64,000 bases of DNA from Acrocarpospora phusangensis (GTDB taxonomy: Bacteria; Actinomycetota; Actinomycetes; Streptosporangiales; Streptosporangiaceae): assembly GCF_016862995.1 (NCBI RefSeq), contig NZ_BOOA01000002.1, positions 62,001 through 126,000 on the forward strand. The letters run 5' to 3'. Made by a program: the position numbers and the translations under genes. Below, one piece after another: positions 1,509 through 51,078 of the stretch. The notes beneath the pieces are model-generated. The model was not told the origin of the DNA. It worked only from the letters and a program-made list of their open reading frames with translations, and searched no databases. How positions within the stretch are numbered: the first letter of the stretch is position 1; the number at the start of each line of letters is the position of its first letter.

Positions 1509-2132
1509 GTGACCATCGCGAGAGCGGCGCTGCTGGTCCTGGTGCTTTCCGCGTGCGGCGCGCCCGCCGGGCGGGAGTTCGTGCCGGGCGGCGGAGCGGC
1601 CACCGCGAAGGCCGCTCCCGCCGCGTCGTCCGCGCCCGCGCCCGGCGTGGAGACGGTCACGGCCGCGCCGGGCCTGAAGGTCACGATCGAATGGCCGTCC
1701 GAACGGAACGTCATGGTCAAGGCGTTCACCGACAGCTTCGTCGGCCAGTGGCGCGCGGTCGGCACGGACGGCGAGGACGAGTCCTACCTGGAGGGCGTCG
1801 AGGAGCCCGCCAACCGGGACGCCTACCGCTGGGTCAGGAGCTTCCTGGCCGAGAAGCAGTCCGCGCAGGGCACGGCCAAGCTGTACGCGCTCCGGGTCGC
1901 CTCGGTGACCGGGCGGGGTGCGGAGATCAACGCGTGCGTCGACACCTCCGGCATCAGGGTCACCGATGCCGCGGGTGACCCGGTGGCCGACCAGCCGCCG
2001 TGGACGGCGCCGCCGCAATCCACGTACCTGCAGGTCGCCGCCGTGCGGAGAGGGGACGACGGCACCTGGCGGGTCAAGCTGTTCCGGCACGCGAGCTACC
2101 CCCACGAACGCGCGAAGGAGTGCCTGCGTTGA
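1509..2132 (+). CDS. Predicted lipoprotein, function unknown
   Basis: The chosen start is the GTG at 1509, preceded by a GGGAGGACG ribosome site at about 1499. The ATG at 1428 would add residues that do not look like a signal peptide. The N-terminus is a short basic and hydrophobic stretch ending in the lipobox LVLSAC, so the protein (207 residues) is probably lipid-anchored outside the membrane. An Ala/Pro/Ser-rich linker follows, then a compact domain. I do not recognise the family. It lies between the BTAD protein and another exported protein, which suggests a small envelope-associated operon. Confidence 0.75.
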   Translation: MTIARAALLVLVLSACGAPAGREFVPGGGAATAKAAPAASSAPAPGVETVTAAPGLKVTIEWPSERNVMVKAFTDSFVGQWRAVGTDGEDESYLEGVEEPANRDAYRWVRSFLAEKQSAQGTAKLYALRVASVTGRGAEINACVDTSGIRVTDAAGDPVADQPPWTAPPQSTYLQVAAVRRGDDGTWRVKLFRHASYPHERAKECLR

Positions 2133-2148
2133 TTTCCGAGGAGGTCCG

Positions 2149-3075
2149 ATGAGACTGCTGCTCGCCCTGGCGCTCGCGCTCGCCCCGGCCGCCGCCCCCA
2201 ACCCGGGCGGGCCGTACGGCCAGGGTTTCCAGGCCGGCCGCACCGTCGGTGTGCAACTGGAGAACTCCACCATCGTCATCACCGGGACCGGCCTGGGCGC
2301 GAAACCCGACGGCTACCGGATCAAACGGCCGTGCTGGTACGAGCCCGGCCGCAGCGCCGAGGACATGCTGAAGACCCAGGAGGACCTGCGGGCGTTCTGG
2401 TTCCACACCAACCCGAACAGCACCGAGGAGGAGTTCCAGGAGTTCCTCAAGCAGTTCAAGGACAAGATCGGGCAGCCGGGCCGCTGGTGGGCGCCCGCCT
2501 ACAACGCGGCCGACCCGGGCGGCATGTCCTGCTGGAGCGCTCTGGAGGGCGCGATCTGGGTGGATCAGGGCAACACGCCGCCCGCCGGGATCACGATGAC
2601 CGAGCTCCTGGACATCGCCAGGGCCGCGCTGACCGTTCCTGAGCCGCAGATCCAGCTCAATCCGGACGCCAAGAGCTACGTGAACCTGCCCACCTTCGTC
2701 TGGCTCAACGGCCAGGGCCAGACGACCCGCTCGGTCACGGCGACCCTGCCGGGCCTGCTGAGCGCCACGGTGACCGCCACCCTGGACGACATCAAGATCG
2801 ACGCCGGGACGACCAGCGACCGGGCCGAGGTCAAGGAGAACTGCGGCCCGGCCGGGAGGCCGTACGCCAAGGGTGCGGCTTTCACGTGTGGTGTCCGGTA
2901 TCTGCGGGCTTCCGCGGATCAGCCGCGCAAGGTCTACACCCTGACCGTCACCACCGTCTGGCCGGTGACGAGCAACGCCGACCAGTCCGTGGTTCCGTTC
3001 GTGTTCGACCCCGTGGAGGGTACGGTCACCCGCGACGTCCAGGTGGGCGAGGTCCAGAGCACGGTCAAGGGCTGA
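2149..3075 (+). CDS. Secreted protein of unknown function
   Basis: The start is the ATG at 2149, with GAGGAGGT just upstream. The frame is open further upstream, but that part overlaps the preceding lipoprotein gene and is not used. The first ~20 residues (MRLLLALALALAPAAA) form a signal peptide, giving a 308-residue exported protein. The mature part is rich in Trp and acidic/aromatic segments in the first half and beta-type Thr/Val-rich sequence in the second half. Cysteines near FTCGVRYL and RPCWYEP may pair outside the cell. It is 16 bases after the lipoprotein stop, so the two are probably co-transcribed. No family is recognised. Confidence 0.75.
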   Translation: MRLLLALALALAPAAAPNPGGPYGQGFQAGRTVGVQLENSTIVITGTGLGAKPDGYRIKRPCWYEPGRSAEDMLKTQEDLRAFWFHTNPNSTEEEFQEFLKQFKDKIGQPGRWWAPAYNAADPGGMSCWSALEGAIWVDQGNTPPAGITMTELLDIARAALTVPEPQIQLNPDAKSYVNLPTFVWLNGQGQTTRSVTATLPGLLSATVTATLDDIKIDAGTTSDRAEVKENCGPAGRPYAKGAAFTCGVRYLRASADQPRKVYTLTVTTVWPVTSNADQSVVPFVFDPVEGTVTRDVQVGEVQSTVKG

Positions 3076-3082
3076 CCGGGGC

Positions 3083-3577
3083 TCAGTTGGCCCGCTCGTG
3101 GTGGAGCAGCCACTCCTTCACGGGCGGGCCGTAGTAGTAGCCGCCGTACCCGCCCGCGGCCGGGAGCACCCGGTGGCAGGGGACGAAGGGCGCGATCAGG
3201 TTCTGGGCGCAGGCCGAGCCGGCCGCCCGGGCGGCGGTCGCGGGCAGCCCGGCGCTGACGGCCAGTTCGGCGTAGCGCACGGTGGTCCCGGCGGGGACCG
3301 CGCGGAGCGCCTGGTAGAGGCGCTGGCGGGTGGGCGTGCCCGGCTGCGACACGGGGATCTTGTCCAGGGCGTCCAGTCTGCCGTCCAGGTAGTCGGCGAC
3401 GGCCTGGGCGGCTTCGGGGAGTTCGCCCACGCGCAGGCCCTCGGCCTGGAGGCGCGGCGAGAGGCGTACGAACATCTCGTGGGGGTCGGCGGTGAAGCCG
3501 GCCGCGACCAGGACGTCTTCGCGGGCGAGCAGGGCGAGCGGTCCGGCGGGGGTCGGGACGGTCTGGGTGACGATCAT
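3083..3577 (-). CDS. ogt: Methylated-DNA--[protein]-cysteine S-methyltransferase
   Basis: This 164-residue protein removes O6-alkyl groups from guanine by suicide transfer to its own cysteine. The active-site motif PCHRV is present with the acceptor at about Cys134, and the helix-turn-helix region before it (TTVRYAELA) is typical of Ogt/AGT. The length matches the family. The ATG at 3577 is preceded by TGAGGAG, and the upstream gene stops only 10 bases before it, so it is co-transcribed with and probably translationally coupled to the Ada-AlkA gene. Together they form an alkylation-repair operon. Confidence 0.95.
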   Translation of the reverse strand: MIVTQTVPTPAGPLALLAREDVLVAAGFTADPHEMFVRLSPRLQAEGLRVGELPEAAQAVADYLDGRLDALDKIPVSQPGTPTRQRLYQALRAVPAGTTVRYAELAVSAGLPATAARAAGSACAQNLIAPFVPCHRVLPAAGGYGGYYYGPPVKEWLLHHERAN

Positions 3578-9669: not shown

Positions 9670-10431
9670 ATGGAAGAGGCGGTCCGCACACGGGGGCTGG
9701 TCAAACGGTTCGGCCAGCAGGTCGCGGTGGCCGGGGTCGATCTGATCGTGCCGAAGGGCAGTTTCGCCGGTCTGGTCGGCCCGAACGGCGCGGGCAAGAC
9801 GACCACGCTGTCCATGGTCACCGGCCTGCTCCGGCCCGACTACGGCACCATCGCCATCGACGGCTTCGACGTGTGGGCCGACCCGCTCAACGTGAAGTCC
9901 CGGATCGGCGTGCTGCCCGAGGGCCTGCGCCTGTTCGAACGCCTCTCCGGCCGGGAGCTGCTGCTCTACAACGGCCAGCTGCGCGGCATTCCCCGTGCCC
10001 AGGTCCAGCAGCGGGCCGAGGAACTGCTCCGGGTCATGGACCTGACCGAGGCCCAGGACAAACTGGTCGTCGACTACTCCACCGGCATGCGCAAGAAGAT
10101 CGGCCTGGCCGCCGCCCTGCTGCACAACCCGGAGGTGCTCTTCCTGGACGAGCCCTTCGAGGGGGTGGACCCGGTGAGCGCGAACACCCTGGTCGAGGTG
10201 CTCCAGCGCTACACCGGCTCCGGCTCCACGGTGATCTTCTCCAGCCACGTCATGGACCTGGTCGAACGCCTCTGCGACTGGGTCTCGGTGATGAGCCGCG
10301 GCTTCATCGTGGCCCAGGGCCCGGTCGCCGAGGTCCGGCAGGGCCGTACGCTCAATGAGGCGTTTCTGGACCTGGTCGGGGCGCGGGGGCACGGCGACGG
10401 CGAGGGACTGTCCTGGCTGGGGTCCCGATGA
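9670..10431 (+). CDS. ABC transporter ATP-binding protein
   Basis: A 253-residue nucleotide-binding subunit with Walker A GPNGAGKTT, a signature-like STGMRKKIGLAAAL and Walker B EVLFLDEPFEGVDP. This is the ABC-2/CcmA-type exporter ATPase class. Its last four bases overlap the start of the permease gene (ATGA), so the two are translationally coupled and form one transporter. Substrate not indicated. Confidence 0.92.
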   Translation: MEEAVRTRGLVKRFGQQVAVAGVDLIVPKGSFAGLVGPNGAGKTTTLSMVTGLLRPDYGTIAIDGFDVWADPLNVKSRIGVLPEGLRLFERLSGRELLLYNGQLRGIPRAQVQQRAEELLRVMDLTEAQDKLVVDYSTGMRKKIGLAAALLHNPEVLFLDEPFEGVDPVSANTLVEVLQRYTGSGSTVIFSSHVMDLVERLCDWVSVMSRGFIVAQGPVAEVRQGRTLNEAFLDLVGARGHGDGEGLSWLGSR

Positions 10432-11978
10432 CCGGCACGTTCGTCCGGCTCAAGCTGCGCCTGATCGCGGGCAGTCTGCGCGGGGATCTGGTCAGGCAGC
10501 TGGGCTTCGGCTTCTCCGTGTTCGCCGCCGTGGTCTGCGCCCTGCTCGGCTTCCTGCTCTTCAGCCTGGTCAGCCTCACCCCCGACGAGATGGCCCTGCG
10601 GATCGGCGCGACGGTCTTCACGGTGGCCGTGCTCGGCTGGGTCGTCGTGCCGCTGCTCGCGTTCGGCCTGGACGAGACGCTCGACCCCTCCCGGCTGGCC
10701 CTGTTCCCGCTGACCACCCGGCAGCTGGCGCTGGGCATGTTCGCCGCCTCCGCCACCGGCGCCTGGCCGATCGCCTCGCTGGTCGCGCTCTTCGGCGCCC
10801 TGGTCGGCCTGTCCCGGGGCATCGGGGGCGTGCTGCTCGGCCTGGTCGCGGTGCCGCTGGTGTTCGCGCTCTGCCTGGTCGCCTCCCGGCTGGTCACCAC
10901 CGCGCTGTCCGGCGCGCTGCGCAGCCGCCGCGGCCGGGACATGCTCGCGGTCGCCGTGGTGTTCGTGGTGCTCCTCACCCAGCTGCCCAACCTGCTGGTC
11001 AACCGCGGCCTGCCCAGCGCCTCGATGGAGATGTTCACCTCGGCCGCCGACACGCTGCGCTGGACCCCGCCCGGCCTGGCCGCGCACGCGATCGCCGACG
11101 GCGGCCTGGCCGGCCTGCTCGACCTGCTGATCCTGGCCGCCGTCGTGGTGCTGCTGGGCTGGCTCTGGATCATCGCCCTGCGGGCGGCACTGGTCCGCCC
11201 CGACTCCTCCAACCAGGGCGGCTCGGTCCGCCGCTCCCGCCGCAAGGGCCTGCTCCCGGACGGAAAACTCGGCGCGGTCATCGCCAAGGAGCTCAAGTAC
11301 GCGCGCCGCGAGCCGCGCGGCCGGGTGGCCTGGTTCACCGCCGTCGCGGTCAGCGGCGTCATGCTGTTCTCCTTCACCGGCCAGGGCTGGGGCGGCTTCG
11401 GCCTCGCGATCGGCCCCGCCATGATCGCCGCGATCATGATCGGCGTGCAGTCCGCCAACACCTTCGGCATCGACGGGCGCTCCCTGTGGATGAACGCGGT
11501 CGCCTTCGGCACCGACCGCGACCTGCGTACTGACTTCGCGGGGCGGCAGCTGGCCAACTTCCTCATCTCCGGGCCGCTGCTCGCCGTCGTGGCGACCGCC
11601 GGCTCGGTGCTGGCAGGGAACGCGCTCTGGGCGGTGCCGGCCACTCTGCTGGCCTGGGGCATGCTCGGGGTCGCCATGGGCACCGGCTCGCTGATGAGCG
11701 TGCTCTCGCCGTACACGTATCCGGAGCGGATGAACGCGTTCAGCGGGGCCGCGCCGGGGCAGGGCGGGCAGGCGTTCGTCGCCGGTCTCGGCGCGATGGC
11801 CGGCGCCGGCCTGCTGGTGCTGCCGGTGCTGATCCCCACCGTGTTCTTCGCCCAGTGGGTGAGCGGCATCGCCGTGGTGTACGGCGCGGCGATGGCCTGG
11901 GGCGGCAGGCGGATCGCGTCCAGGATCGGCTTCCGGCGCATGCCGGAACTGCTGGAGGCGGTGTCCCGGCCCACCTGA
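10428..11978 (+). CDS. ABC transporter permease (ABC-2 type)
   Basis: A 516-residue membrane protein with multiple hydrophobic segments (for example VFAAVVCALLGFLLFSLVSL and DLLILAAVVVLLGWLWIIAL) and a charged cytoplasmic loop in the middle (SVRRSRRKGLLPDGKLGAV). It is the membrane partner of the preceding ATPase, with which it overlaps by four bases. The length and the pair arrangement fit exporter-type systems of unknown substrate common in actinomycetes. No binding protein is encoded nearby, which supports export rather than import. Confidence 0.85.
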   Translation: MTGTFVRLKLRLIAGSLRGDLVRQLGFGFSVFAAVVCALLGFLLFSLVSLTPDEMALRIGATVFTVAVLGWVVVPLLAFGLDETLDPSRLALFPLTTRQLALGMFAASATGAWPIASLVALFGALVGLSRGIGGVLLGLVAVPLVFALCLVASRLVTTALSGALRSRRGRDMLAVAVVFVVLLTQLPNLLVNRGLPSASMEMFTSAADTLRWTPPGLAAHAIADGGLAGLLDLLILAAVVVLLGWLWIIALRAALVRPDSSNQGGSVRRSRRKGLLPDGKLGAVIAKELKYARREPRGRVAWFTAVAVSGVMLFSFTGQGWGGFGLAIGPAMIAAIMIGVQSANTFGIDGRSLWMNAVAFGTDRDLRTDFAGRQLANFLISGPLLAVVATAGSVLAGNALWAVPATLLAWGMLGVAMGTGSLMSVLSPYTYPERMNAFSGAAPGQGGQAFVAGLGAMAGAGLLVLPVLIPTVFFAQWVSGIAVVYGAAMAWGGRRIASRIGFRRMPELLEAVSRPT

Positions 11979-12054
11979 GCAGCCCCCCAGTGGTCTAGTC
12001 CAATGGGTGAGACCGGTCTCGGGCCAGTCAGGGTCACTCGCTACTCTTCGAACC

Positions 12055-14694
12055 ATGGCCTCGATCGAACGCCACAGCGCTGTCACTGAGATGCCCGACG
12101 AACTCCGCGCCGACGTCCGCCTCCTGGGTGAACTGCTAGGTCGAGTGATCGCCGAACAGGGCGGCCCCGATCTGCTGGCCGACGTGGAACGGCTGCGGAA
12201 AGCGGTGATCTCCGCCCGCCGCCGGGAGACCACCGTGGACGAGGTCGCCGCGCTGGTGAACACCTGGCCGGTGGACCGCGCGGTGGAGATCGCCCGCGCC
12301 TTCACCTGCTACTTCCACCTGGCGAACCTGGCCGAGGAGCACTACCGGATCAGGATCCTGCGCCGCCGCGACAGCGACGACACGCCGGTGCCGGAGTCGC
12401 TGGCCCAGGCCGTACGGGATCTCAAGGACGATCTCGGGCTGGAGGAGCTGAACCGGCTCATCCAGGGCCTGGAGTTCCGGCCGGTGCTCACCGCCCATCC
12501 CACCGAGGCCAGGCGGCGGGCCGTGGTCACCGCCATCCAGCGGGTCAGCGCCCAGCTCGACGCGTACAACACGCCGGGCAGGGGAGCGGCCGAGCGGGAG
12601 GAGGCGCACCGGCGGCTGCTGGAGGAGATCGACCTGCTCTGGCGTACCTCCCAGCTCAGGAGCACCAAGCTGGACCCGCTCGACGAGGTGCGCACCGCGA
12701 TGGCCGCCTTCGACGAGACCCTGTTCCGGGCCGTCCCGCACATCTACCGCTCGCTGGACGCCGCGCTCGAACCCGGCACCGGCACCCGCGCCCCCCGCTC
12801 CCGCGCCTACATCCGGTACGGCAGCTGGATCGGCGGCGACCGGGACGGCAACCCCAACGTGACCGCCAAGGTGACCAGGGAGGCCGTGCTCATCCACGCC
12901 GAGCACGTGCTGACCGCGCTGGAGACCGCCGCCAACCGGATCGCCCGCACGCTGACGGCCGCCGCGGCCTACACCCCGCCGTCCGGCCAGCTGGCCGCCG
13001 CGCTGGCCCAGGCCGAGGGGGACTTCCCCGACCTGGTCTCGGAGATGGCCACCCGGTCGCCGCAGGAGCCGCACCGGCAGTGGCTGCTGTTCACCGCCGC
13101 CAGGATCGCCGCCACCCGCCGCCGCGACCTCGACCTGGCCTACCTGTCGCCGGCGGACCTCCTGGCCGATCTGCGGCTGGCGCAGGACTCGCTGCGCGAC
13201 GCGGGCGCGGCCCGGCAGGCGTACGGGGAGATCCAGAACCTGATCTGGCAGGTGGAGACGTTCGGCTTCCACCTGGCCGAGCTGGAGGTGCGGCAGCACT
13301 CGCAGGTGCACGCGGAGGCGCTGGCCGAGCTCACCGCGGGCGGCCGGCGCTCGGAGCGCACCGAGGAGGTGCTGGCCACCATCCGGACGATCGCCTGGAT
13401 CCAGGAGCGTTTCGGGGTCAAGGCCTGCTCCCGCTACGTGGTCTCCTTCACCCGCTCCGCCGACGACGTGGCCGCCGTCTACGAGCTGGCCCGGCACGCG
13501 CTGGGGGACCGGGCGCCGGTGCTGGACGTGGTGCCGCTCTTCGAGTCGGGGGAGGACCTGGACAATTCGGTGTCGGTCCTGTCCGGGATGGTGGCGTCCG
13601 AGCCGGTCCGGCGCAGGCTGGCCGCCAACGGCCGCCGGATCGAGGTCATGCTCGGCTACTCCGACTCGGCCAAGGAGCTGGGCCCGGCCGCCGCGACCAT
13701 GCGCCTCTACGACGCGCAGGCCGCGCTGACCGCCTGGGCGGCCGAGAACGACGTGCGGCTCACCCTCTTCCACGGCCGCGGCGGCGCGCTCGGCCGCGGC
13801 GGCGGCCCCGCCAACCGGGCCGTGCTGGCCCAGGCCCCGGGTTCGGTGGCCGGCCGCTTCAAGGTCACCGAGCAGGGCGAGGTCATCTTCGCCCGGTACG
13901 GTCACCAGGCCATCGCCCGCCGCCACATCGAGCAGGTCACCAACGCCGTCCTGCTCGCCTCCACCTCCAGCGTGGAGTCCAGCACCGCCGAGGCCGCCGC
14001 CAAGTTCCGCGCGCTGGCCGGCCAGGTGGCCTCGGCGTCGGAGCACGCGTACCGGGCGCTTACCGAGGCGCCCGGCTTCCCCGAGTGGTTCGCGCTGGTC
14101 AGCCCGCTGGAGGAGATCGGCTCGCTGCGCCTCGGCTCGCGCCCGGCCCGCCGCGGCCTCGGCGCGCCCAAGTCGCTGGACGACCTGCGCGCCATCCCGT
14201 GGGTGTTCGCCTGGGCCCAGACCCGCGTCAACCTGCCCGGCTGGTACGGCCTGGGCAGCGGCCTGTCGGCCGTCCTGGAGGCCGGGGGCAGGGCCGAACT
14301 CCAGTCGGCGTACCAGGAGTGGCCGCTGTTCGCCTCGCTGCTGGACAACGTGGAGATGTCCCTGGCCAAGACCGACCGGGCCATCGCCTCCCGCTACCTG
14401 GCCCTGGGCGGCAGGGACGACTTCGCCAAGCAGGTCCTCGTCGAGTACGACCTGACCAGGAAGCTCGTCCTGGAGATCACCGGGCACAGCCGCCTGCTGG
14501 AGAACCGCCGGGTCCTGTCGCGGGCGGTGCAACTGCGCGATCCGTACGTGGACGCGCTCTCGCACCTGCAGTTGCGGGCGCTGTCGGCGCTGCGCTCGGA
14601 GGACGGGCTGACCGAGGAGGAGCGGGACCGGCTCTCGACGCTGCTGCTGCTCAGCGTGAACGGTGTGGCGGCCGGCCTGCAGAACACCGGCTGA
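12055..14694 (+). CDS. ppc: Phosphoenolpyruvate carboxylase
   Basis: An 879-residue enzyme that makes oxaloacetate from PEP and bicarbonate to refill the TCA cycle. Conserved blocks seen in order: VLTAHPTEARRR (catalytic His), the GGDRDGNPNVT PEP/metal region, GYSDSAKELGPAAA, FHGRGGALGRGGGP (glycine loop) and QGEVIFARYG. The length is typical of actinobacterial Ppc. The block after GYSDS reads AKELGP rather than the N/SKD.G seen in enterobacteria, which I take as a lineage variant. The ATG at 12055 gives the family N-terminus; an in-frame upstream ATG at 12007 is less likely. Confidence 0.96.
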   Translation: MASIERHSAVTEMPDELRADVRLLGELLGRVIAEQGGPDLLADVERLRKAVISARRRETTVDEVAALVNTWPVDRAVEIARAFTCYFHLANLAEEHYRIRILRRRDSDDTPVPESLAQAVRDLKDDLGLEELNRLIQGLEFRPVLTAHPTEARRRAVVTAIQRVSAQLDAYNTPGRGAAEREEAHRRLLEEIDLLWRTSQLRSTKLDPLDEVRTAMAAFDETLFRAVPHIYRSLDAALEPGTGTRAPRSRAYIRYGSWIGGDRDGNPNVTAKVTREAVLIHAEHVLTALETAANRIARTLTAAAAYTPPSGQLAAALAQAEGDFPDLVSEMATRSPQEPHRQWLLFTAARIAATRRRDLDLAYLSPADLLADLRLAQDSLRDAGAARQAYGEIQNLIWQVETFGFHLAELEVRQHSQVHAEALAELTAGGRRSERTEEVLATIRTIAWIQERFGVKACSRYVVSFTRSADDVAAVYELARHALGDRAPVLDVVPLFESGEDLDNSVSVLSGMVASEPVRRRLAANGRRIEVMLGYSDSAKELGPAAATMRLYDAQAALTAWAAENDVRLTLFHGRGGALGRGGGPANRAVLAQAPGSVAGRFKVTEQGEVIFARYGHQAIARRHIEQVTNAVLLASTSSVESSTAEAAAKFRALAGQVASASEHAYRALTEAPGFPEWFALVSPLEEIGSLRLGSRPARRGLGAPKSLDDLRAIPWVFAWAQTRVNLPGWYGLGSGLSAVLEAGGRAELQSAYQEWPLFASLLDNVEMSLAKTDRAIASRYLALGGRDDFAKQVLVEYDLTRKLVLEITGHSRLLENRRVLSRAVQLRDPYVDALSHLQLRALSALRSEDGLTEEERDRLSTLLLLSVNGVAAGLQNTG

Positions 14695-40206: not shown

Positions 40207-41313
40207 GTGCCACACCAAGCACCAGGAGACCCGCCAGTCCCTCTGTCAGACATACCCGCTCCGCCTCAGGGACAAGTGACTACGGTGGCGAATCTTGCTG
40301 GCGGCACTCCACCGACCCCGAGACAGAGAATCTTCTTCTACACACCTGACGTCTGGGAAGACTTCATCCTTGAGTGGGTAACAGGTCTGCGAGAAGACTA
40401 CTTTCAAATCAAGCGTATCGGCGGATCAAACGATCGAGGTGCCGACGTCGCCGGCTTTTTGAGTCCGGATGGGTTTGAGGGGGAATGGGATTGCTTTCAA
40501 TGTAAGCATTATGAAGAAGCGTTGATGCCCAGCGACGCTTACCCGGAGATCTTTAAGATTCTTAGGTCGGTTGTCGAAGGCCACTACACGATGCCCCGCA
40601 GGTACTATTTCCTTGCCCCACAAGGATGCGGACCAGGTCTTAAGCGAATGCTGAGCAAGCCTAGTGAGCTTCGTACGAAGTTCCTTGAAAAGTTTGAGGG
40701 AGACAAGCCGCTAGGGGCCGGACTTGATGGGAGTTTGGTCGATAAGGTTCGAGGCCTGGCCGAAACGATCGAGTACAATGTTTTTCGGTCAGTGGAAATA
40801 CATGAGATTCTGGAAGTTCATAGTCGCACACCGTACTATGCCCATCGCTTCGGTGGCCCTCTACCAGCACGTCCAGTTGTCCAGACCCCTCCGGAGACGC
40901 CCGAGGAAGAAGAGACACGCTACATTGAGCACCTGCTCAATGTCTATGTCGAACACTTCAAAATGGAGATACAGGGCATCGAGTCTCTGATGTCACATCC
41001 GAAGGCTATGAAACACTTTAGTCGACAGCGCGAGGCCTTTTACAGCGCTGAAGCGCTGAGGGTTTTCGCGCGGGATAGCGTAATGCCCGGTACATTCGAG
41101 GAATTGCAAAACGAGGTATATGAGGGCGTCATTGAGACACAAGAACGCTCCTATCCAGACGGAATGGAACGACTAACGCGAGTCTTGGAGATGGCGACAG
41201 CGTTGAGTCTAACCTCGAATGCACTTATTTCGGTGTCCAACCCAAGAGACAAGCGGGGCATTTGCCATCAGCTGGCAAACTCAGATCGCCTCATCTGGTG
41301 TGACGAGCAATGA
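40207..41313 (+). CDS. ABC-3C system effector: Mrr-like nuclease domain plus ABC-3C C-terminal domain
   Basis: A 368-residue protein. After a Pro-rich ~40-residue lead, residues ~45-125 form a restriction-endonuclease-like fold: WEDFILEW, then GSNDRGADVAGF (Asp80), then FQCKHY (Gln98, Lys100), the D...QxK pattern of Mrr-type PD-(D/E)xK nucleases. The C-terminal ~200 residues are helical and match in character the shared domain of ABC-three-component proteins (many acidic/Tyr-rich helices, for example YIEHLLNVYVEHFKMEI). It is expected to cut nucleic acid when the system fires. G+C is near half, far below the host. It starts at a GTG; the next gene overlaps its stop (ATGA). Confidence 0.8.
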   Translation: MPHQAPGDPPVPLSDIPAPPQGQVTTVANLAGGTPPTPRQRIFFYTPDVWEDFILEWVTGLREDYFQIKRIGGSNDRGADVAGFLSPDGFEGEWDCFQCKHYEEALMPSDAYPEIFKILRSVVEGHYTMPRRYYFLAPQGCGPGLKRMLSKPSELRTKFLEKFEGDKPLGAGLDGSLVDKVRGLAETIEYNVFRSVEIHEILEVHSRTPYYAHRFGGPLPARPVVQTPPETPEEEETRYIEHLLNVYVEHFKMEIQGIESLMSHPKAMKHFSRQREAFYSAEALRVFARDSVMPGTFEELQNEVYEGVIETQERSYPDGMERLTRVLEMATALSLTSNALISVSNPRDKRGICHQLANSDRLIWCDEQ

Positions 41314-41795
41314 TAAACCAACCTCTGAACGGCCCACTAGAGACAGGCATACGAGTACTGGCTATTCTAACTAGCGCATTCCCAGAAGCCTACGACATAA
41401 ATGCTCTCGCGTTTTTTGATTACAGCCTGCTCCACTCTGAGGAGTTTGGAGGCCCGCAGAGTTTACATCCGGATGTTCCTAACCACACGAGCGAGATAGC
41501 TGTGAAACGCGAACTTCTGGAACTTGGGCTACAAGTCATGATTCGCGCGAGACTGGTTACCTTGCAGGTCAGTAGTAGCGGAATTGGTTATGCTGCGACA
41601 GATAATGCGCCCGGTTTCGTGGAACTTCTCGAGTCATCGTATATGCATCAATTGCGAAATCGTGCAGACTGGGTCATTGAGGCCTTTGGAAGTGTAAACC
41701 CTGCCGAGATTCGGGAGAAAATGTCGGCCCTGGGTCGCTGGCCGGAGTTGGTGGACCCATCACCAAGCCGCCGCATGGAGGCAACCGATGAGTAA
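41310..41795 (+). CDS. ABC-3C system middle component
   Basis: A 161-residue protein with helix-rich winged-helix-like composition (ETGIRVLAILTSAFPEAYD, FFDYSLLHSEEFGGP, KRELLELGLQVMIRARLV). The size, the position between effector and ATPase, and the start ...LFDYLLVHSGD-like motif are those of the ABC-3C middle component, thought to bridge sensor ATPase and effector. It overlaps the upstream gene by 4 bases and the downstream ATPase gene by 8, so all three are translated as a unit. Confidence 0.8.
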   Translation: MINQPLNGPLETGIRVLAILTSAFPEAYDINALAFFDYSLLHSEEFGGPQSLHPDVPNHTSEIAVKRELLELGLQVMIRARLVTLQVSSSGIGYAATDNAPGFVELLESSYMHQLRNRADWVIEAFGSVNPAEIREKMSALGRWPELVDPSPSRRMEATDE

Positions 41796-43635
41796 ATTGC
41801 GGCTTACACACCTCAGCTTTATCGGCAAGGGTGTCCCGGATGCAACGGTGGAGTTTGGGTCGGGCCTTACCGTGATATATGGCGCTTCTGACACAGGCAA
41901 ATCGTATATCGTTGAAGCAATCGACTTCATGCTCGGCAGAAAAGCACTAAAATCCATCCCCGAAGCAGAGCCATACTCTACTATTCTGCTGAGTATGATT
42001 TTGCCCGATGATACTGCATTGACTCTAGAGCGATCAATACAGGGCGGTTCATTCCGCGCATATCGCGGCGAGTTCATGAGTGCGCCGAATACGGCACCAG
42101 ATTTCACGCTGGCGGCGGCTCACGGGCAAGCAAGCTCTACGAAGGATAGCCTTTCAGGCTTCCTGCTGCGGCAAATCGGCCTGGATGGTCGTCAGATCCG
42201 GAAGAATAAGCGCAATGAAACCGTTCCCCTGAGCTTCCGAAATCTTTGCTTTTTGTGCATCATCGATGAGACCAAGATGCAAGCCGCTACACCGCCAGCG
42301 CTCTCGGGTCAATACACGACGGCAACAGCAGAGATCTCGACGCTTAAACTGCTCTTGCAGGGCGACGATGATAGTGCGATTGCCCAGGACGCGGGTGCAG
42401 TCGAACGACGGAAGATTGGTAGAGGTAAAGCAGAGGTCCTCGAAGTAGTGATCAGGGATCTTAAGGAGACCCTACTCTCCGCCGACGGCCCTCTTGAGCT
42501 TAATGAGCAGTTGTCCCGCCTCAACAATTCCATCCAGGAGCATACCTCAGCAATAGATTCGATTCTCGACTCACGAACCGGCGTCGCCTCCGAGCATGCC
42601 TCGGCAGTGCGTGTTTACAGCAACCACCAGGCGCGACTTGAAGAGGTCAGCGAGCTTATTTCTCGCTTCTCGCTCCTACTCGCCAAATACGATTCAGATT
42701 TGGACCGGCTAGAAATGGTTCGGGAAGCAGGAAGTCTGCTTGGCTATTTCCGGCCAGGTGTATGCGTATTTTGTGGTGCAGAAGTAGAGCACCAAGCGGC
42801 GGATGTTCACAGCGCAGAGGAGATTTCTGCATTCGGGGAGTCGGTTCTTGTGGAGATTCAAAAGACCAGCATGCTCCGTGAGGATCTGCTCAGCACCCTC
42901 TCCGATCTCCAAACGCAAGAACAGCGCTTGCGGTCGAGCATTCTCGGCTCCACAGCTACAATCCAGCAGCTGCGACAGCAGATCAATGCTTTCGACGAAG
43001 AACTTCAGCCTCAGAGGGTGGCAATACAGGACCTTGTGAACGTAAGGTCGGACATCGAGAGCAAGCTGGCAACTTATGCTCAAATAGAGAAACTAGAGGC
43101 ACTACGGGCAACTGTCCAACCCGAAGATCCAGAGAATCTGCCAACCCCTACTGGCCTTAACGAAAAAGTACTGATAGAGCTTGCCGCGTCAATTAAGGAA
43201 GTACTCCATCAGTGGTCGGTGCCAATTGCGGACTCCGTTACATATAGCAAAAGCGCTAATGATCTCTTCGTCGGCGATCAAGCCCGAGGTTCGCGAGGAA
43301 AAGGCGTGCGATCCATTCTTCATGCCGCCTTTACGCTCGGGTTGGCCCAATACTGTTTCGATCGCGATCTGGAACATCCCGGATTCGTCGTCCTCGATTC
43401 TCCCCTTATTACATATCGGGAACCAGAGCCCGGGGTAAGCGAAGGACCTTCGGAAGAGGAATTTGCGAGCGTTGCAGACGCTTTTTATTTCTATATAGAT
43501 TTCCAGTTTGATGGTCAGTGTATTGTCGTCGAGAACACCGACCCTCCAGCAAACTTGTCCGACGAGGTGAAACTTGTTCACTTCACTAAGCGCCGCGATT
43601 TCGGCCGTTATGGGTTCTTTCCGGTTCCCGTTTGA
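41788..43635 (+). CDS. ABC-3C system SMC/Rad50-like ABC ATPase
   Basis: A 615-residue ATPase. Walker A is GASDTGKSY near residue 30, and a long coiled coil spans roughly residues 200-450. A CxxC pair in CVFCGAEVEHQ (about residue 327) sits mid-coil like a zinc hook. The C-terminal half-site has the signature-like SRGKGVRSI, then Walker B FVVLDSPLI. This is the Rad50/SMC-type head and coil used by ABC-3C conflict systems, where the ATPase is thought to sense invading or aberrant nucleic acid. It overlaps the middle component. The low-G+C block ends with this gene. Confidence 0.85.
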   Translation: MSKLRLTHLSFIGKGVPDATVEFGSGLTVIYGASDTGKSYIVEAIDFMLGRKALKSIPEAEPYSTILLSMILPDDTALTLERSIQGGSFRAYRGEFMSAPNTAPDFTLAAAHGQASSTKDSLSGFLLRQIGLDGRQIRKNKRNETVPLSFRNLCFLCIIDETKMQAATPPALSGQYTTATAEISTLKLLLQGDDDSAIAQDAGAVERRKIGRGKAEVLEVVIRDLKETLLSADGPLELNEQLSRLNNSIQEHTSAIDSILDSRTGVASEHASAVRVYSNHQARLEEVSELISRFSLLLAKYDSDLDRLEMVREAGSLLGYFRPGVCVFCGAEVEHQAADVHSAEEISAFGESVLVEIQKTSMLREDLLSTLSDLQTQEQRLRSSILGSTATIQQLRQQINAFDEELQPQRVAIQDLVNVRSDIESKLATYAQIEKLEALRATVQPEDPENLPTPTGLNEKVLIELAASIKEVLHQWSVPIADSVTYSKSANDLFVGDQARGSRGKGVRSILHAAFTLGLAQYCFDRDLEHPGFVVLDSPLITYREPEPGVSEGPSEEEFASVADAFYFYIDFQFDGQCIVVENTDPPANLSDEVKLVHFTKRRDFGRYGFFPVPV

Positions 43636-47115: not shown

Positions 47116-47320
47116 TCACGCCACCTTGATCGCGTTGGCGAAGATGTCGGCCCCGTCTGTTCGCTGATCAGGTGAGGCGTACACCCGGAGCGTGATAGCG
47201 GGATCGGAGTGGCCGAGGCGGGCCGTGACGAGGTAGACAGGGACACATCCTTGCCTCTTGATTGCATTAGCGCGGACAATGCCATCTAGGCCCGTCTTGC
47301 GCCCATAGGCTGCTCGGGCG
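47116..47320 (-). pseudogene. Second tyrosine recombinase C-terminal remnant
   Basis: The frame reads VPVYLVTARLGHSDPAITLRVYA, given here as VTARLGHSDP and ITLRVYA, then ADIFANAIK, the tail of an actinobacterial integrase with the second active-site His and the nucleophile Tyr. The HxxR box and everything before it is lost. It differs from the remnant at 38925, so two separate elements have left traces. Confidence 0.7.
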
Positions 47321-47363
47321 CTGATCAAGGCTTGGCTGGTATGGACTGTTTTGGGAGTCAAAT

Positions 47364-47684
47364 ATGGATCGACTGTTGGCCGTGCCTGTTGAGGTCTGCA
47401 GCGAAGACGTTATCGTTTTCGAGGTCGATCGCGATTTGATGGGCCAGGATCTCGACCTCGCCGCTGGGGATGGAACTATTGCACGAGCTCGCAATTCTCT
47501 CGATAAAGCACTTCACAGCATCAAGCCCGCTCTCGCCCAAATCATCGACACTCTCCGTGAAGCGGCGCCCAATGAAATCGAAATAGAATTCGGTTTAAAG
47601 GTTAGTGGCGAGTCGACAATCGTGATTGCCAAGGGGACCACGGAAGTAAATTTTGCGATCCGGGTACTGTGGAAGCGTTCTTAG
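47364..47684 (+). CDS. Trypco1 (CU044_2847-type) small protein, partner of the trypsin-NTPase protein
   Basis: A 106-residue protein with the beta-rich start VPVEVCSEDVIVFEVDRD, a helix (RARNSLDKALHSIKPALAQI) and a C-terminal EIEFGLKVSGES..IVIAKG hairpin. This is the pattern of the trypsin-co-occurring domain found beside trypsin-like/NTPase conflict proteins in actinomycetes. The protease-NTPase gene starts directly after its stop, which supports the assignment. Its biochemical role is unknown; a substrate or partner of the protease is one guess. Confidence 0.75.
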   Translation: MDRLLAVPVEVCSEDVIVFEVDRDLMGQDLDLAAGDGTIARARNSLDKALHSIKPALAQIIDTLREAAPNEIEIEFGLKVSGESTIVIAKGTTEVNFAIRVLWKRS

Positions 47685-47688
47685 GGTG

Positions 47689-50600
47689 ATGGCGACTATA
47701 TCGCGGCACGGATTTTTGGTCCGCATCCGACGCTCTGGAAGTGAAGACACCGTGGGTGTCGGTCTCGTGGTGGGCGATCGCGAAATTCTGACGTGTGCAC
47801 ATGTTATCAATGCGGCGATGGGGCGAGACAAGATCACCAGCGATCGCCCGGCACAGAGCGTGCGGATCCAGATTGATTTCCCGCTTCTAGGTGATGTCGA
47901 TGGTGCGCCTCTAAGGAACTGCAAGGTTGTTGCATGGAGCCCGCCGGCGGCGACTGATTGCGCTGGCCGCGATATCGCCGGACTCGTTCTCGTGGGAGGA
48001 GACACCTTGCCTTACGGTGCCGGCCCGGCCCGGCTGGTAAACCGCAAAGAGCCGCCCAAAGGCGAGATAAGCATGTTCGGGTATCCAAGCTCCCCTTCCC
48101 GGGCCAACGGAGCATGGACCACGTGCAGAATTCGTGGTGCGGTCACCGGGGGGCTGCTTCAACTCGATGCGGCCAGCGAGTCCGCCCTGAGGGCTCAACC
48201 AGGATACAGCGGTAGCCCCGTGATCACGGAGGACGAATGGGGGGACGTGGTCGTCGGCATGTTGGTCATCGCATCTCGCGATGGTTTGGTGGGCGATGCC
48301 TATGCGATCCCTATGGCACATATTGCAGAATCATGGCCAGAGGTTCTCGCTGGTAGTTCCATTCCACCTTGCCCGTATCGCGGACTACGTACATTCACGG
48401 CCGCTGACGCTCGAGCCGGGCTTTTCGTTGGGCGGGAAGACGAAATAACCAGGCTCAGGTCCATGGTCAAAATCAATCCACTGATCCTTGTGGTCGGGCC
48501 TTCCGGTGTCGGCAAATCATCCCTGGTAGCTGCCGGTCTAGAGCCTGCTCTCCGCGCCGAGGGTTGGCGGGTGACCTCGTTCCGGCCCGGTCGATCGCCA
48601 TTCGATGCCGCTGCGTATGCACTGCTGAGTCTAGCGCAACCAGAAAAGACGCCTTCTCTGGAGGACCTTAATGCCTGCGCTACCCAAGTACGCCAGTACG
48701 GTCTAACGCATGTCACCGAGAAAATGACCCTTCTGGTAGGCGGACCGGTCGCGATCATCTGCGATCAGATGGAAGAGCTTTTTACTTCCGAGCAAAGCAA
48801 TAGTGAAGGTCTAGAATTCCTGCAGAAATTACTTCCTCCTGTCGGGAGTGAATCAGTCTCGCGTGCCGTCCGACTCGTTTGTACGCTCAGGGCCGACTTC
48901 CTTCCAATGATTCTCGAACTACCTGGAATGGGATTGCGGCTGCAGGATCGGCAGCTGAACATCTCTCCATTGGATGAACGGGCTCTGACCCGGGTAATTG
49001 TCGAGCCTTCCACTACCGAAGGCGTGATGTACTCACCGCAACTCGTGGAGCTTATCGCTGCAGAAGCCAGCCGGAGTAGAGGCGGACTACCACTCCTTGA
49101 ATTCACTCTGACCCAGCTGTGGCCGATGCAGATCAAGCGCAGGTTGACATTTGATCACTACTATGCTCTCGGTGGTGTCGCCGGTGCTCTGAATCGACAT
49201 GCGGAAAATGTCTACCATGAACTGTGCGCAGAATTCGATGAAGGGAGCATCCGGAGGGTCCTGCTGGCAATGGTGCGCGCCAGAGGCGGGGCAGCGAGTG
49301 CGGTCCGAGTGGTCGCGCAGCGTGAGCATTTAGGCGATGGCTGGAAGATAGCCGAAGCGCTTGCCAGTTCAACTAACCGTTTAGTGGTGCTCGCACCCGA
49401 AGGGCCGGACACAGCAGAAATTGCTCACGAAGCATTGATCCGCGAATGGAAGCGCCTGCGGGACTGGGCCGATACGGATGCGGAGTTCCAGCGCTGGCTG
49501 ACGGTAATGGATGAGCGTTCTGCGGAGAGTGATTTACTCTCGGACGTCAGGGTCGCCGAAGCGCAACGTTGGCTGGTCGAGCGGTCGGACGATATTCCGT
49601 CCGGAATCGTATCCTTCGTCGAACTCAGCCAAAAAGATATCAAGCTCAAGATCGAAGCCTTGAAGGCTCAAGATGAGCTGCGCAGATCCAACGCCGAGCT
49701 CGAGGAGAAGGCGGCGCTGCTGGCCAGGCAGAACCGTGCGATTGAGATCCAGAACTTCCAGATCGAACAGGCCAGAAAGACCCTGGAGGAGCGGGCCGAG
49801 CAGTTGGCCGTCTCCTCCCGCTACAAGTCCGAGTTCCTTGCCAACACATCTCACGAGCTGCGTACACCCCTCAGTAGCATGCTCGTGCTGGCCAAGCTCC
49901 TCACCGAGAATGCCGAGGGCAACCTCACCTCCCAGCAGGTGGAGTTCGCGCGCACGATCCACGGCGCGGGCTCGGCGTTGCTCCAGCTGATCAACAACAT
50001 CCTGGATGTATCCAAGGTCGAGGCGGGCCGTATGGACATCCATCCGAGCCAACTCTCGGTGCCCAAGCTCGTCAGCTACGTCGAGTCCGCTTTTGCCCCG
50101 CTGGCCCAGGACAAAGGGCTGGCCTTCATCGTTGAGCTCGACCCAGGCGTCCCGCAGAACCTACGCACCGATGAGCAGCGCCTGCAGCAGGTGCTGGGCA
50201 ACCTGCTCTCCAACGCGGTCAAGTTCACCCCCAAGGGCGAGGTACGGCTGCGCGTCGCGCCCGCGCCGATGAGCATCGAGTACAGCGACGCGGCGTTGCG
50301 CGAGGCAGGCGATCTGATCGCCTTCCAGATCACTGACAGTGGCATCGGCATCCCGCCAGACAAGCTCGAGGTCATATTCGAGGCATTCAGGCAGGTGGAC
50401 GGCACCACCAGCCGCAAGCACGGCGGCACCGGTCTCGGCCTCTCGATCTGCCGCGACATCGCCCGGTTGCTCGGCGGCGAGATCCACGTCGATAGCGAGC
50501 TCGGCAAGGGGAGCACGTTCACCCTCTACCTACCGCCCGTCTATTCAGGCCCGCTGGCCGCGAGCGACGGTGGTGTGGTTCGCCGTCCGGTCACAACGAA

Positions 50601-51078
50601 CCCAGTCAAGGCGCCGGTCGCCGACCTGCCCGTCTGGGGCCAGAAGTGGCAGGGCGAGGACCCGCTGGTTGGCGTCAAGATTCTGATCATCGACGACGAC
50701 ATTCGGAATGTGTTCGCGCTGACCAGCGTGCTGGAGCGGTACGGCTCGACGATCGTCTACGCCGAGAACGGCAGTGAGGGTATCGAGCAGCTCGAACGCA
50801 ACGAGGACGTCGCCCTGGTCCTGATGGACATCATGATGCCCGAGATGGATGGCTGGGCGACGACCTCGACCATCCGCCGGATGCCGCAGTTCGCGGATCT
50901 GCCGATCGTCGCGTTGACCGCTAAGGTCATGCGAGGCGATCGCGAGAAGAGCATCGCCTCCGGCGCCTCCGACTATGTGGCCAAGCCATTCGATGTAGAC
51001 CGGCTGCTGGAGCGACTGCGCGGCTGGCTCAGCCGTGGCCGGGGAACCGCAGCCGACTCATCAGCTGAAGGGGCGTAG
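47689..51078 (+). CDS. Trypsin-like protease / nSTAND NTPase / histidine kinase / receiver fusion protein
   Basis: A single uninterrupted 1129-residue frame. Residues ~1-215: trypsin-like protease with a full triad, His38 (LTCAHVI), Asp95 (GRDIAGLVL) and Ser174 (GYSGSP). Residues ~230-600: STAND-type NTPase, P-loop GPSGVGKSS at 270-278, Walker-B-like IICDQMEELF, ending in IAHEALIREWKRLRDW. Residues ~640-705: coiled coil. HisKA follows with His722 (NTSHELRTPLSS), then HATPase (LLSNAVKFT, DSGIGIPPDK, GGTGLGLSI). Residues ~995-1115: receiver with Asp1047 (LVLMDIMMPEMDG) and the Lys in VAKPF. Usual relatives carry WD40 repeats where the kinase sits here. The kinase half resembles multi-HAMP hybrid kinases of streptomycetes but has no HAMP or membrane helix. 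Starts possible at GTG 47686 or ATG 47689. G+C rises near 49660, at the domain junction. Confidence 0.88.
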   Translation: MATISRHGFLVRIRRSGSEDTVGVGLVVGDREILTCAHVINAAMGRDKITSDRPAQSVRIQIDFPLLGDVDGAPLRNCKVVAWSPPAATDCAGRDIAGLVLVGGDTLPYGAGPARLVNRKEPPKGEISMFGYPSSPSRANGAWTTCRIRGAVTGGLLQLDAASESALRAQPGYSGSPVITEDEWGDVVVGMLVIASRDGLVGDAYAIPMAHIAESWPEVLAGSSIPPCPYRGLRTFTAADARAGLFVGREDEITRLRSMVKINPLILVVGPSGVGKSSLVAAGLEPALRAEGWRVTSFRPGRSPFDAAAYALLSLAQPEKTPSLEDLNACATQVRQYGLTHVTEKMTLLVGGPVAIICDQMEELFTSEQSNSEGLEFLQKLLPPVGSESVSRAVRLVCTLRADFLPMILELPGMGLRLQDRQLNISPLDERALTRVIVEPSTTEGVMYSPQLVELIAAEASRSRGGLPLLEFTLTQLWPMQIKRRLTFDHYYALGGVAGALNRHAENVYHELCAEFDEGSIRRVLLAMVRARGGAASAVRVVAQREHLGDGWKIAEALASSTNRLVVLAPEGPDTAEIAHEALIREWKRLRDWADTDAEFQRWLTVMDERSAESDLLSDVRVAEAQRWLVERSDDIPSGIVSFVELSQKDIKLKIEALKAQDELRRSNAELEEKAALLARQNRAIEIQNFQIEQARKTLEERAEQLAVSSRYKSEFLANTSHELRTPLSSMLVLAKLLTENAEGNLTSQQVEFARTIHGAGSALLQLINNILDVSKVEAGRMDIHPSQLSVPKLVSYVESAFAPLAQDKGLAFIVELDPGVPQNLRTDEQRLQQVLGNLLSNAVKFTPKGEVRLRVAPAPMSIEYSDAALREAGDLIAFQITDSGIGIPPDKLEVIFEAFRQVDGTTSRKHGGTGLGLSICRDIARLLGGEIHVDSELGKGSTFTLYLPPVYSGPLAASDGGVVRRPVTTNPVKAPVADLPVWGQKWQGEDPLVGVKILIIDDDIRNVFALTSVLERYGSTIVYAENGSEGIEQLERNEDVALVLMDIMMPEMDGWATTSTIRRMPQFADLPIVALTAKVMRGDREKSIASGASDYVAKPFDVDRLLERLRGWLSRGRGTAADSSAEGA

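Follow-up and report, generated by a model that had tools for sequence, protein, structure and literature searches.

A trypsin–nSTAND1 protein of Acrocarpospora phusangensis and other actinobacteria carrying an OsaA-type kinase–receiver module, possibly a sensor or bait, in the C-terminal place of WD40 repeats

Trypsin–nSTAND1–WD40 proteins and conflict systems linked to Trypco1 or Trypco2 were described by Kaur et al. (2020, PMC7159879), who defined Trypco1 and stated that vWA-associated effectors were found to include no histidine kinase domains. A passage of PMC10907252 names Trypco1 as an adapter that accompanies trypsin-like and other effectors. On the side of two-component signalling, passages of PMC9739842 and PMC10117811 assign the hybrid kinase OsaA and its partner OsaB to osmoadaptation in Streptomyces, and a passage of PMC8195603 treats receivers that occur independently of histidine kinases. 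Here a two-gene locus of Acrocarpospora phusangensis is described, which lies in a stretch of 64,000 nucleotides (GCF_016862995.1, contig NZ_BOOA01000002.1, positions 62,001 to 126,000, forward strand; this whole stretch is called the window) and in which a Trypco1 gene is followed by a gene for one protein that joins a trypsin domain and an nSTAND1 NTPase to the kinase–receiver end of an OsaA-type hybrid kinase (the fusion protein). An earlier note, made from the sequence alone, had known of no described system with this layout, and none was found by title and abstract in the mostly open-access literature searched.

The trypsin–nSTAND1–HisKA–HATPase–receiver layout in one intact protein with a Trypco1 partner is real (Table 1). 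The frame of the fusion gene is unbroken over 1129 amino acids, its ATG at 47689 follows the Trypco1 stop after 4 bases, and Pfam returned Trypsin_2, nSTAND1, HisKA, HATPase_c and Response_reg in this order, all five above their curated cut-offs (nSTAND1 with 296.6 bits against a cut-off of 27.1). The four-part layout read by the earlier note was thus borne out, His38, Asp95, Ser174, the P-loop (GPSGVGKS at 270–277), His722 and Asp1047 were all located where it had placed them, and the Trypco1-type gene that it saw ahead was identified by its PF19493 match. Every scored relay residue of the HisKA–HATPase–receiver part is intact in the window's protein, in which Pfam gave no match to a C-terminal WD40 domain or to HAMP and GAF input domains.

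Table 1. Features of the two-gene locus, in window coordinates.
Feature	Position	Strand	Residues and motifs	Evidence
Trypco1 gene, first gene of the two-gene unit	47364..47684	+	106 amino acids	Pfam PF19493, E 2.7e-21; NCBIfam CU044_2847 family
Fusion gene: trypsin, nSTAND1, coiled coil, HisKA, HATPase, receiver	47689..51078	+	1129 amino acids	
Trypsin-like protease domain	47755..48252	+	23–188; triad His38/Asp95/Ser174	Pfam Trypsin_2, E 1.7e-8
nSTAND1 NTPase	48373..49518	+	229–610; P-loop 270–277	Pfam nSTAND1, E 5e-88
Helical arm and coiled coil, NTPase-to-kinase joint	49525..49824	+	613–712	
DNA similar to the own genome's resident OsaA-like kinase gene	49669..51029	+		blastn against L049
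HisKA domain	49825..50028	+	713–780; His722	Pfam
HATPase_c domain	50167..50535	+	827–949	Pfam
Receiver domain (Response_reg)	50680..51018	+	998–1110; Asp1047	Pfam

Homologues with the same domain order were sought in other genomes, and 16 other distinct full-length proteins, 52–76% identical to the window's, brought the number of intact fusion proteins to 17, carried by Streptosporangiaceae (4 proteins) and Streptomyces (13 proteins). The domain order was confirmed with Pfam in all four that were scanned among these 16. Since 17 distinct intact proteins align over their full length, a strain-specific accident or a misassembly was ruled out, and the case considered in the earlier note, two unrelated genes joined in one strain only, did not apply. 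In a tree of the trypsin–nSTAND part the 17 fusions formed one clade (support 100/100) against nine more distant relatives (the cousins). Pfam was run on eight of the cousins fetched, from the group of 36–38% identity: seven had a WD40 or beta-propeller match after nSTAND1, one of them weak, in line with the earlier note's statement that such relatives usually end in WD40, and the eighth had no C-terminal domain in Pfam. At 18 of 18 loci (the 17 and a frameshifted copy on the Streptomyces clavuligerus plasmid pSCL3) the fusion gene is immediately preceded by a Trypco1 homologue in the same orientation. When open frames around the 18 loci were compared, leaving aside frames overlapping the two genes and genes sharing the receiver domain, Trypco1 was the sole common neighbour; others recurred in at most a few of the loci, and no response-regulator or OsaB-like gene was conserved beside the fusion. 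The trypsin–nSTAND1 scaffold with its Trypco1 partner is conserved as one clade, and the kinase–receiver end of an OsaA-type hybrid kinase fills the C-terminal place held by WD40 in most of the nearest relatives scanned.

The kinase–receiver module has a different history. Residues 656 to the end of the window's protein are 74–76% identical to a resident kinase present in all five genomes of the genus, which in G003 has seven HAMP stretches followed by GAF, HisKA, HATPase and receiver domains in a frame of 1396 amino acids and in G001 is directly followed by a response-regulator gene; it is called OsaA-like by its layout, which matches that of OsaA/OsaB, and not by phylogeny with SCO5748. In a tree of 46 kinase–receiver modules (the fusion L112 and the duplicate L122 having been removed from the resident set) the fusions needed seven label changes, at least four of them forced by well-supported branches. 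The [Actinomadura] parvosata module paired, as sister, with the resident kinase of its own genome (98/86), the Nonomuraea gerenzanensis module grouped with resident kinases of the Nonomuraea group (100/99), that of Spongiactinospora sp. TRM90649 adjoined its own resident kinase on a long branch (85/84), and the 13 Streptomyces modules grouped with four Streptomyces resident kinases (98/99). The approximately unbiased (AU) test rejected all 17 fusion modules as one clade (p 3.8e-29), the four Streptosporangiaceae modules together (p 4e-8), the window's with those of N. gerenzanensis and A. parvosata (p 2e-4), the window's with that of N. gerenzanensis (p 4e-4) and, more weakly, the 13 Streptomyces modules together (p 0.012). 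In several lineages, then, the module belongs with kinases from the genome or genus in which it now resides. The earlier note had proposed that a phosphorelay replaces the recognition or effector part; a kinase–receiver does stand in the WD40 place, and its likeness to resident OsaA-like kinases in several hosts had not been seen at that time.

Because the sub-groups for the AU tests had been picked after the tree was seen and long branches were present, a separate check was made on the DNA. The N. gerenzanensis and A. parvosata fusions showed a synonymous difference of 0.76 [0.71–0.81] in the trypsin–nSTAND part and of 0.25 [0.20–0.31] in the histidine kinase (HK) part; it was 0.18 between the two resident kinases, and 0.14 and 0.23 between the fusions and the resident kinases of their own genomes. 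In four Streptomyces control pairs both parts were alike (0.19/0.16, 0.33/0.31, 0.15/0.21 and 0.46/0.38). The scaffold is therefore much older than the module in N. gerenzanensis and A. parvosata, and a single, vertically inherited kinase module was ruled out by the AU tests together with these distances. The Spongiactinospora fusion differs from its own resident by 0.23 in the kinase and 0.43 in the receiver. Likeness to the resident gene begins at about residues 654–661, the start of the coiled coil, in the window's copy and those of N. gerenzanensis and Spongiactinospora, later in A. parvosata, where part of the coil is missing, and runs nearly to the stop codon; the main blocks are 72–90% identical in eight resident–fusion pairs (blastn), and in the window there are two, 49669–50573 and 50622–51029, at 81 and 84%. 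This pattern points to recombination of a homologous kinase segment rather than to fresh joining, repeated capture at one junction being a possible alternative. The Streptomyces fusions tested are no nearer to their own resident (synonymous divergence, dS, 0.41–0.88 in HK) than residents of different species are to one another (0.36–0.45), and therefore no recent recopying was seen there. No close donor of the window's module turned up in the sample, and its latest copying may have taken place in a different host.

Between NTPase and kinase, the distance from W603 to H722 was 120, 92, 141, 99 or 117 residues across the 17 fusions, so that in 15 of the 16 others the linker equals the window's or lies whole heptads apart from it; in one it is shifted by −3, which coiled coils tolerate as a stutter. 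By these lengths the predicted coiled coil keeps its phase with the kinase, which is support and not proof for a rigid coupled helix, because slippage of heptad repeats could favour the same lengths. The A. parvosata coil is 28 residues (four heptads) shorter than the window's. Structure prediction for the 600–720 junction, proposed in the earlier note, gave a single helix from 638 to 718 joining NTPase to kinase, at low confidence: the full-length model was poor (mean predicted local distance difference test, pLDDT, 53; predicted template modelling score, pTM, 0.31), as was the Trypco1 model (pLDDT 53). In a sequence search of the PDB the best 60 of 322 matches all lay within the kinase–receiver region.

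As to which part delivers the output, the protease triad is invariant in 17/17 fusions and 9/9 cousins, the P-loop is intact in the same 17 and 9, and D359 and E362 are invariant in all 17 fusions. The core relay sites (H722, E723, D883, D1003, D1047 and K1099 were scored) are altered in 8 of the 17, in at least five separate lineages on the tree: H722Y with D1047E in S. flavofungini, S. aureocirculatus, S. aureoverticillatus and S. typhae, D1047R with K1099T in G792, E723Q with D883G in G742, D1003H in G1086, and a single change in G966. H722 is thereby Y in 4/17 and D1047 replaced in 5/17; the softer site T1077 is changed too in several fusions. Among 29 resident-type kinases scored, 24 keep every core relay site (seven of these belong to a paralogue group outside the closest clade), and the other five, the most distant paralogues, keep H722 and D1047 and have altered receiver pockets; matches with short alignments (L124, L125, L129, L170, L171, L181 and L182) were left unscored. 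Distant HAMP-type paralogues at 44–47% identity (L128 and L130–L133, three genomes of genus g39) keep the kinase His, with the acidic and lysine residues of the receiver pocket altered. In column counts from 11 resident kinases, H722 (kept in 13/17 fusions) and D1047 (12/17) fare no better than the average resident-invariant column (86% in the dimerisation and histidine phosphotransfer, DHp, domain; 75% in the receiver).

The earlier note had proposed the relay as the output, in that NTPase assembly could drive autophosphorylation of His722 and transfer to Asp1047; carried over to the present module, this rival would have the switch feed the OsaA/OsaB stress pathway. In its favour, every relay residue is intact in the window's protein, and three of the four Streptosporangiaceae copies have a conserved receiver. 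The phase in which the coil meets the kinase is constant, and a histidine kinase normally takes its input from this side; on DHp helix 1, 14 of the 17 fusions retain N729, 16 retain S730 and all 17 retain L734. Against it stand the relay changes in 8/17 fusions and at least five lineages, with none in the protease triad or P-loop, and the lack of a conserved response-regulator gene among the neighbours of the 18 loci. That proposal keeps its place as a rival on account of the window's intact relay, and we consider it unlikely. Given the relay changes on the one hand and the constraint among close relatives on the other, the system as a whole probably does not use phosphotransfer as its output, although the relay may be active in the window's protein.

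Codon comparisons, for which 13 resident kinases were used, gave ratios of nonsynonymous to synonymous change (dN/dS) in seven close Streptomyces fusion pairs of 0.05–0.15 for nSTAND, 0.18–0.41 for HK and 0.15–0.51 for the receiver, and in resident kinases within genera, where not zero, of 0.07–0.11 for HK and 0.01–0.07 for the receiver. Selection-free decay of the whole gene was ruled out by the nSTAND values together with the invariant triad and P-loop. The higher ratios and altered catalytic residues would also fit relaxed constraint on a kinase that serves for dimerisation and coupling only, its likeness to residents being a by-product of recombination with no need for a host match, and the 72–90% identity of the main blocks makes resident and fusion modules similar enough to recombine. 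This account, too, is considered unlikely: HK and receiver ratios in close pairs stay below 1 (0.15–0.51), the scored residues of the ATP-binding motifs are kept in the H722Y/D1047E group, and a passive scaffold would not need the catalytic and ATP-binding domain and the receiver, yet 17/17 fusions align through both.

Instead, the kinase–receiver end is read as a sensor or bait that matches the host and is coupled to the nSTAND1 switch, with trypsin as the output and Trypco1 as its partner, a combination to which a probability of about 0.5 is given. A sensor or bait role is indicated because the module sits in the WD40 place and derives from the resident OsaA-like kinase in several hosts; a host-matched, mechanically coupled sensor or bait is more likely than an output, and the protease is the likely output. 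In the proposed mechanism the kinase–receiver module would act as a sensor (bait or guard) that dimerises through its DHp helices and keeps the NTPase in a resting state. A factor of an invader would bind or modify the OsaA look-alike, or the OsaA pathway would change state, and the resulting helix shift would lead to nSTAND1 oligomerisation and release of the trypsin domain, which would then cleave a target and stop the infected cell; Trypco1 would probably be substrate, inhibitor or adaptor. Copying from the resident kinase would keep the bait similar to the true target, and the window's clade may have kept an active relay, which may serve to tune the switch. Taken a step further, and only tentatively, the system could be an integrated-decoy receptor, a mobile protease–NTPase cassette whose resident OsaA-type kinase end serves as bait, is copied anew from the host at hand once the cassette has passed to another species, and is free to lose its own catalysis.

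Several points weigh against the sensor or bait reading. In the tree, besides the long fusion branches and the post hoc choice of sub-groups, the window's module groups with kinases of the Nonomuraea group (95/85) and not with its own genome's kinase, and the N. gerenzanensis and A. parvosata modules as one event were not rejected (AU p 0.137). In the DNA, the window's module lies at a synonymous difference of at least 0.40 from all seven resident kinases tested, and gene conversion between similar genes could arise without selection for a match. As to relay loss, G966 is altered by E723K only, and 7/17 are altered if that copy is left out; His722 and Asp1047 are both present in the window's protein and in the three proteins nearest to it, and dN/dS values of 0.07–0.12 among the window's, N. 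gerenzanensis and A. parvosata copies show a receiver under strong conservation, as in a working one. That the fusion HK changes faster is clear against within-genus pairs only, because resident kinases compared between genera reach 0.28–0.33 there. We know of no phage factor that hits OsaA-type kinases, and no search for one was made.

The fusion is sparsely distributed. Residues 1–604 were searched in 341 genomes of the family, of which 37 matched at E 1e-45; besides the window there were three strong matches of full length, with 79, 73 and 68% identity over residues 1–604 and frames of 1096–1143 amino acids, and below them identity fell to 38% or less, except for a 54% partial protease match in G055. 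Four of the 341 genomes carry the full fusion, the three others being N. gerenzanensis (L150, the same DNA as L086 of G153), A. parvosata (L134, protein also in G145) and Spongiactinospora sp. TRM90649 (L135, protein also in G293). In the other four genomes of the genus the fusion gene was not found (best matches 33–37%), an order-wide search of 345 genomes gave no strong relative beyond the family's own, and among 396 genomes sampled from the whole phylum the window's own was the only one to match at E 1e-75. In the genus of G367, 7 of 392 sampled genomes carry the fusion, and since one of the 7 has the S. aureoverticillatus sequence the genus is taken to be Streptomyces; a second draw (5/246) returned only genomes already among these 7 and was not added to the counts. 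Plasmid copies were found in S. xanthophaeus, S. virginiae, S. sp. NBC_01431 and S. clavuligerus, three of them intact; the pSCL3 copy (L149) stands outside the 17 proteins, the 11.85-Mb N. gerenzanensis record of the plasmid collection was treated as a chromosome, and L159 and L138 do not differ within the stretch compared. Viral carriage was considered and set aside, no relative being confirmed among 49 pattern matches in one scan of viral contigs.

Two observations stand beside these searches. In the plasmid records L146–L149, at about 9990–13490, no protein is listed for the fusion gene in any of the four and the locus tags skip two steps, although the frame is intact in three; the protein table used is known to be incomplete, but the fusion may also be broken up or dropped during annotation and could then be missing from protein databases. 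In G055, a contig of 4356 bases (L103) encodes, at 1698–3531 on the minus strand, a Trypsin_2 protein that shares 53% identity with the protease domain of the window's protein and is preceded by a Trypco1-like frame; its 376-amino-acid frame gave no kinase or nSTAND match.

In the window itself, a Lamassu-type set of LmuA (CTD6 of ABC-3C), LmuC (MC2) and LmuB lies at 40207–43635 on the plus strand, 3.7 kb from the fusion copy (PADLOC E 2e-114, 1.7e-46 and 1.9e-169, respectively); PADLOC models gave nothing beyond two weak P-loop matches in the fusion protein. Just upstream of the Trypco1 gene, at 47116–47361 on the minus strand, is an 81-amino-acid frame (LGHSDPAITLRVYA) that may be the tail of a tyrosine recombinase and had no Pfam match. 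In the own genome (G000, 9.1 Mb) 16 further stretches match nSTAND1 above the cut-off, 11 of them in frames of 1178–1753 amino acids. A protease outside immunity, which would read osmotic or envelope stress through OsaA/OsaB and use trypsin for regulated proteolysis, could draw on the osmoadaptation role cited above and on the intact relay of the window's protein; the patchy spread (4/341 in the family, 7/392 in Streptomyces), the plasmid copies, the variable neighbours and the defence neighbour fit conflict genes better than housekeeping and make it very unlikely.

If the sensor or bait reading is true, bacteria would have reached the integrated-decoy solution of plant nucleotide-binding leucine-rich repeat receptors (NLRs) independently, with the added step that the decoy is matched to new hosts by copying a resident gene. 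In its integrated-decoy form this reading would mean that the OsaA hub is under attack by phages or plasmids of filamentous actinobacteria. Immune-type STAND switches would be tied to two-component signalling, and the poorly understood OsaA/OsaB hub would be a likely target of invaders. With an active relay, the weaker reading, the protein would be a STAND-driven histidine kinase, likewise a layout without a description in the literature searched.

Compared with known systems, the fusion shares with the trypsin–nSTAND1–WD40 conflict proteins the order of Trypsin_2 and nSTAND1, the triad, the P-loop, the Trypco1 neighbour and actinobacterial hosts, and differs in having HisKA, HATPase and receiver domains in place of the C-terminal WD40, which is usual there and not obligatory. 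With OsaA-type hybrid kinases (S. coelicolor SCO5748) it shares the coiled coil, HisKA, HATPase and receiver, at 74–76% identity to the five genus copies, but it has trypsin–nSTAND instead of the HAMP and GAF input, lacks a conserved adjacent OsaB-like gene and has core relay changes in 8/17 copies. Antiphage STAND proteins of the Avs and bNACHT types combine an N-terminal effector, a central STAND NTPase and a C-terminal sensor; the fusion differs from them in NTPase family and sensor. Plant NLRs with integrated decoys are STAND-type receptors that contain a domain of host-protein origin, which in some copies lacks catalytic residues. The fusion likewise places a host-derived domain on a STAND receptor, the exact donor of the window's copy not having been found, but it is bacterial, armed with a protease and apparently recopied from resident kinases, so that the likeness is one of analogy and not of membership.

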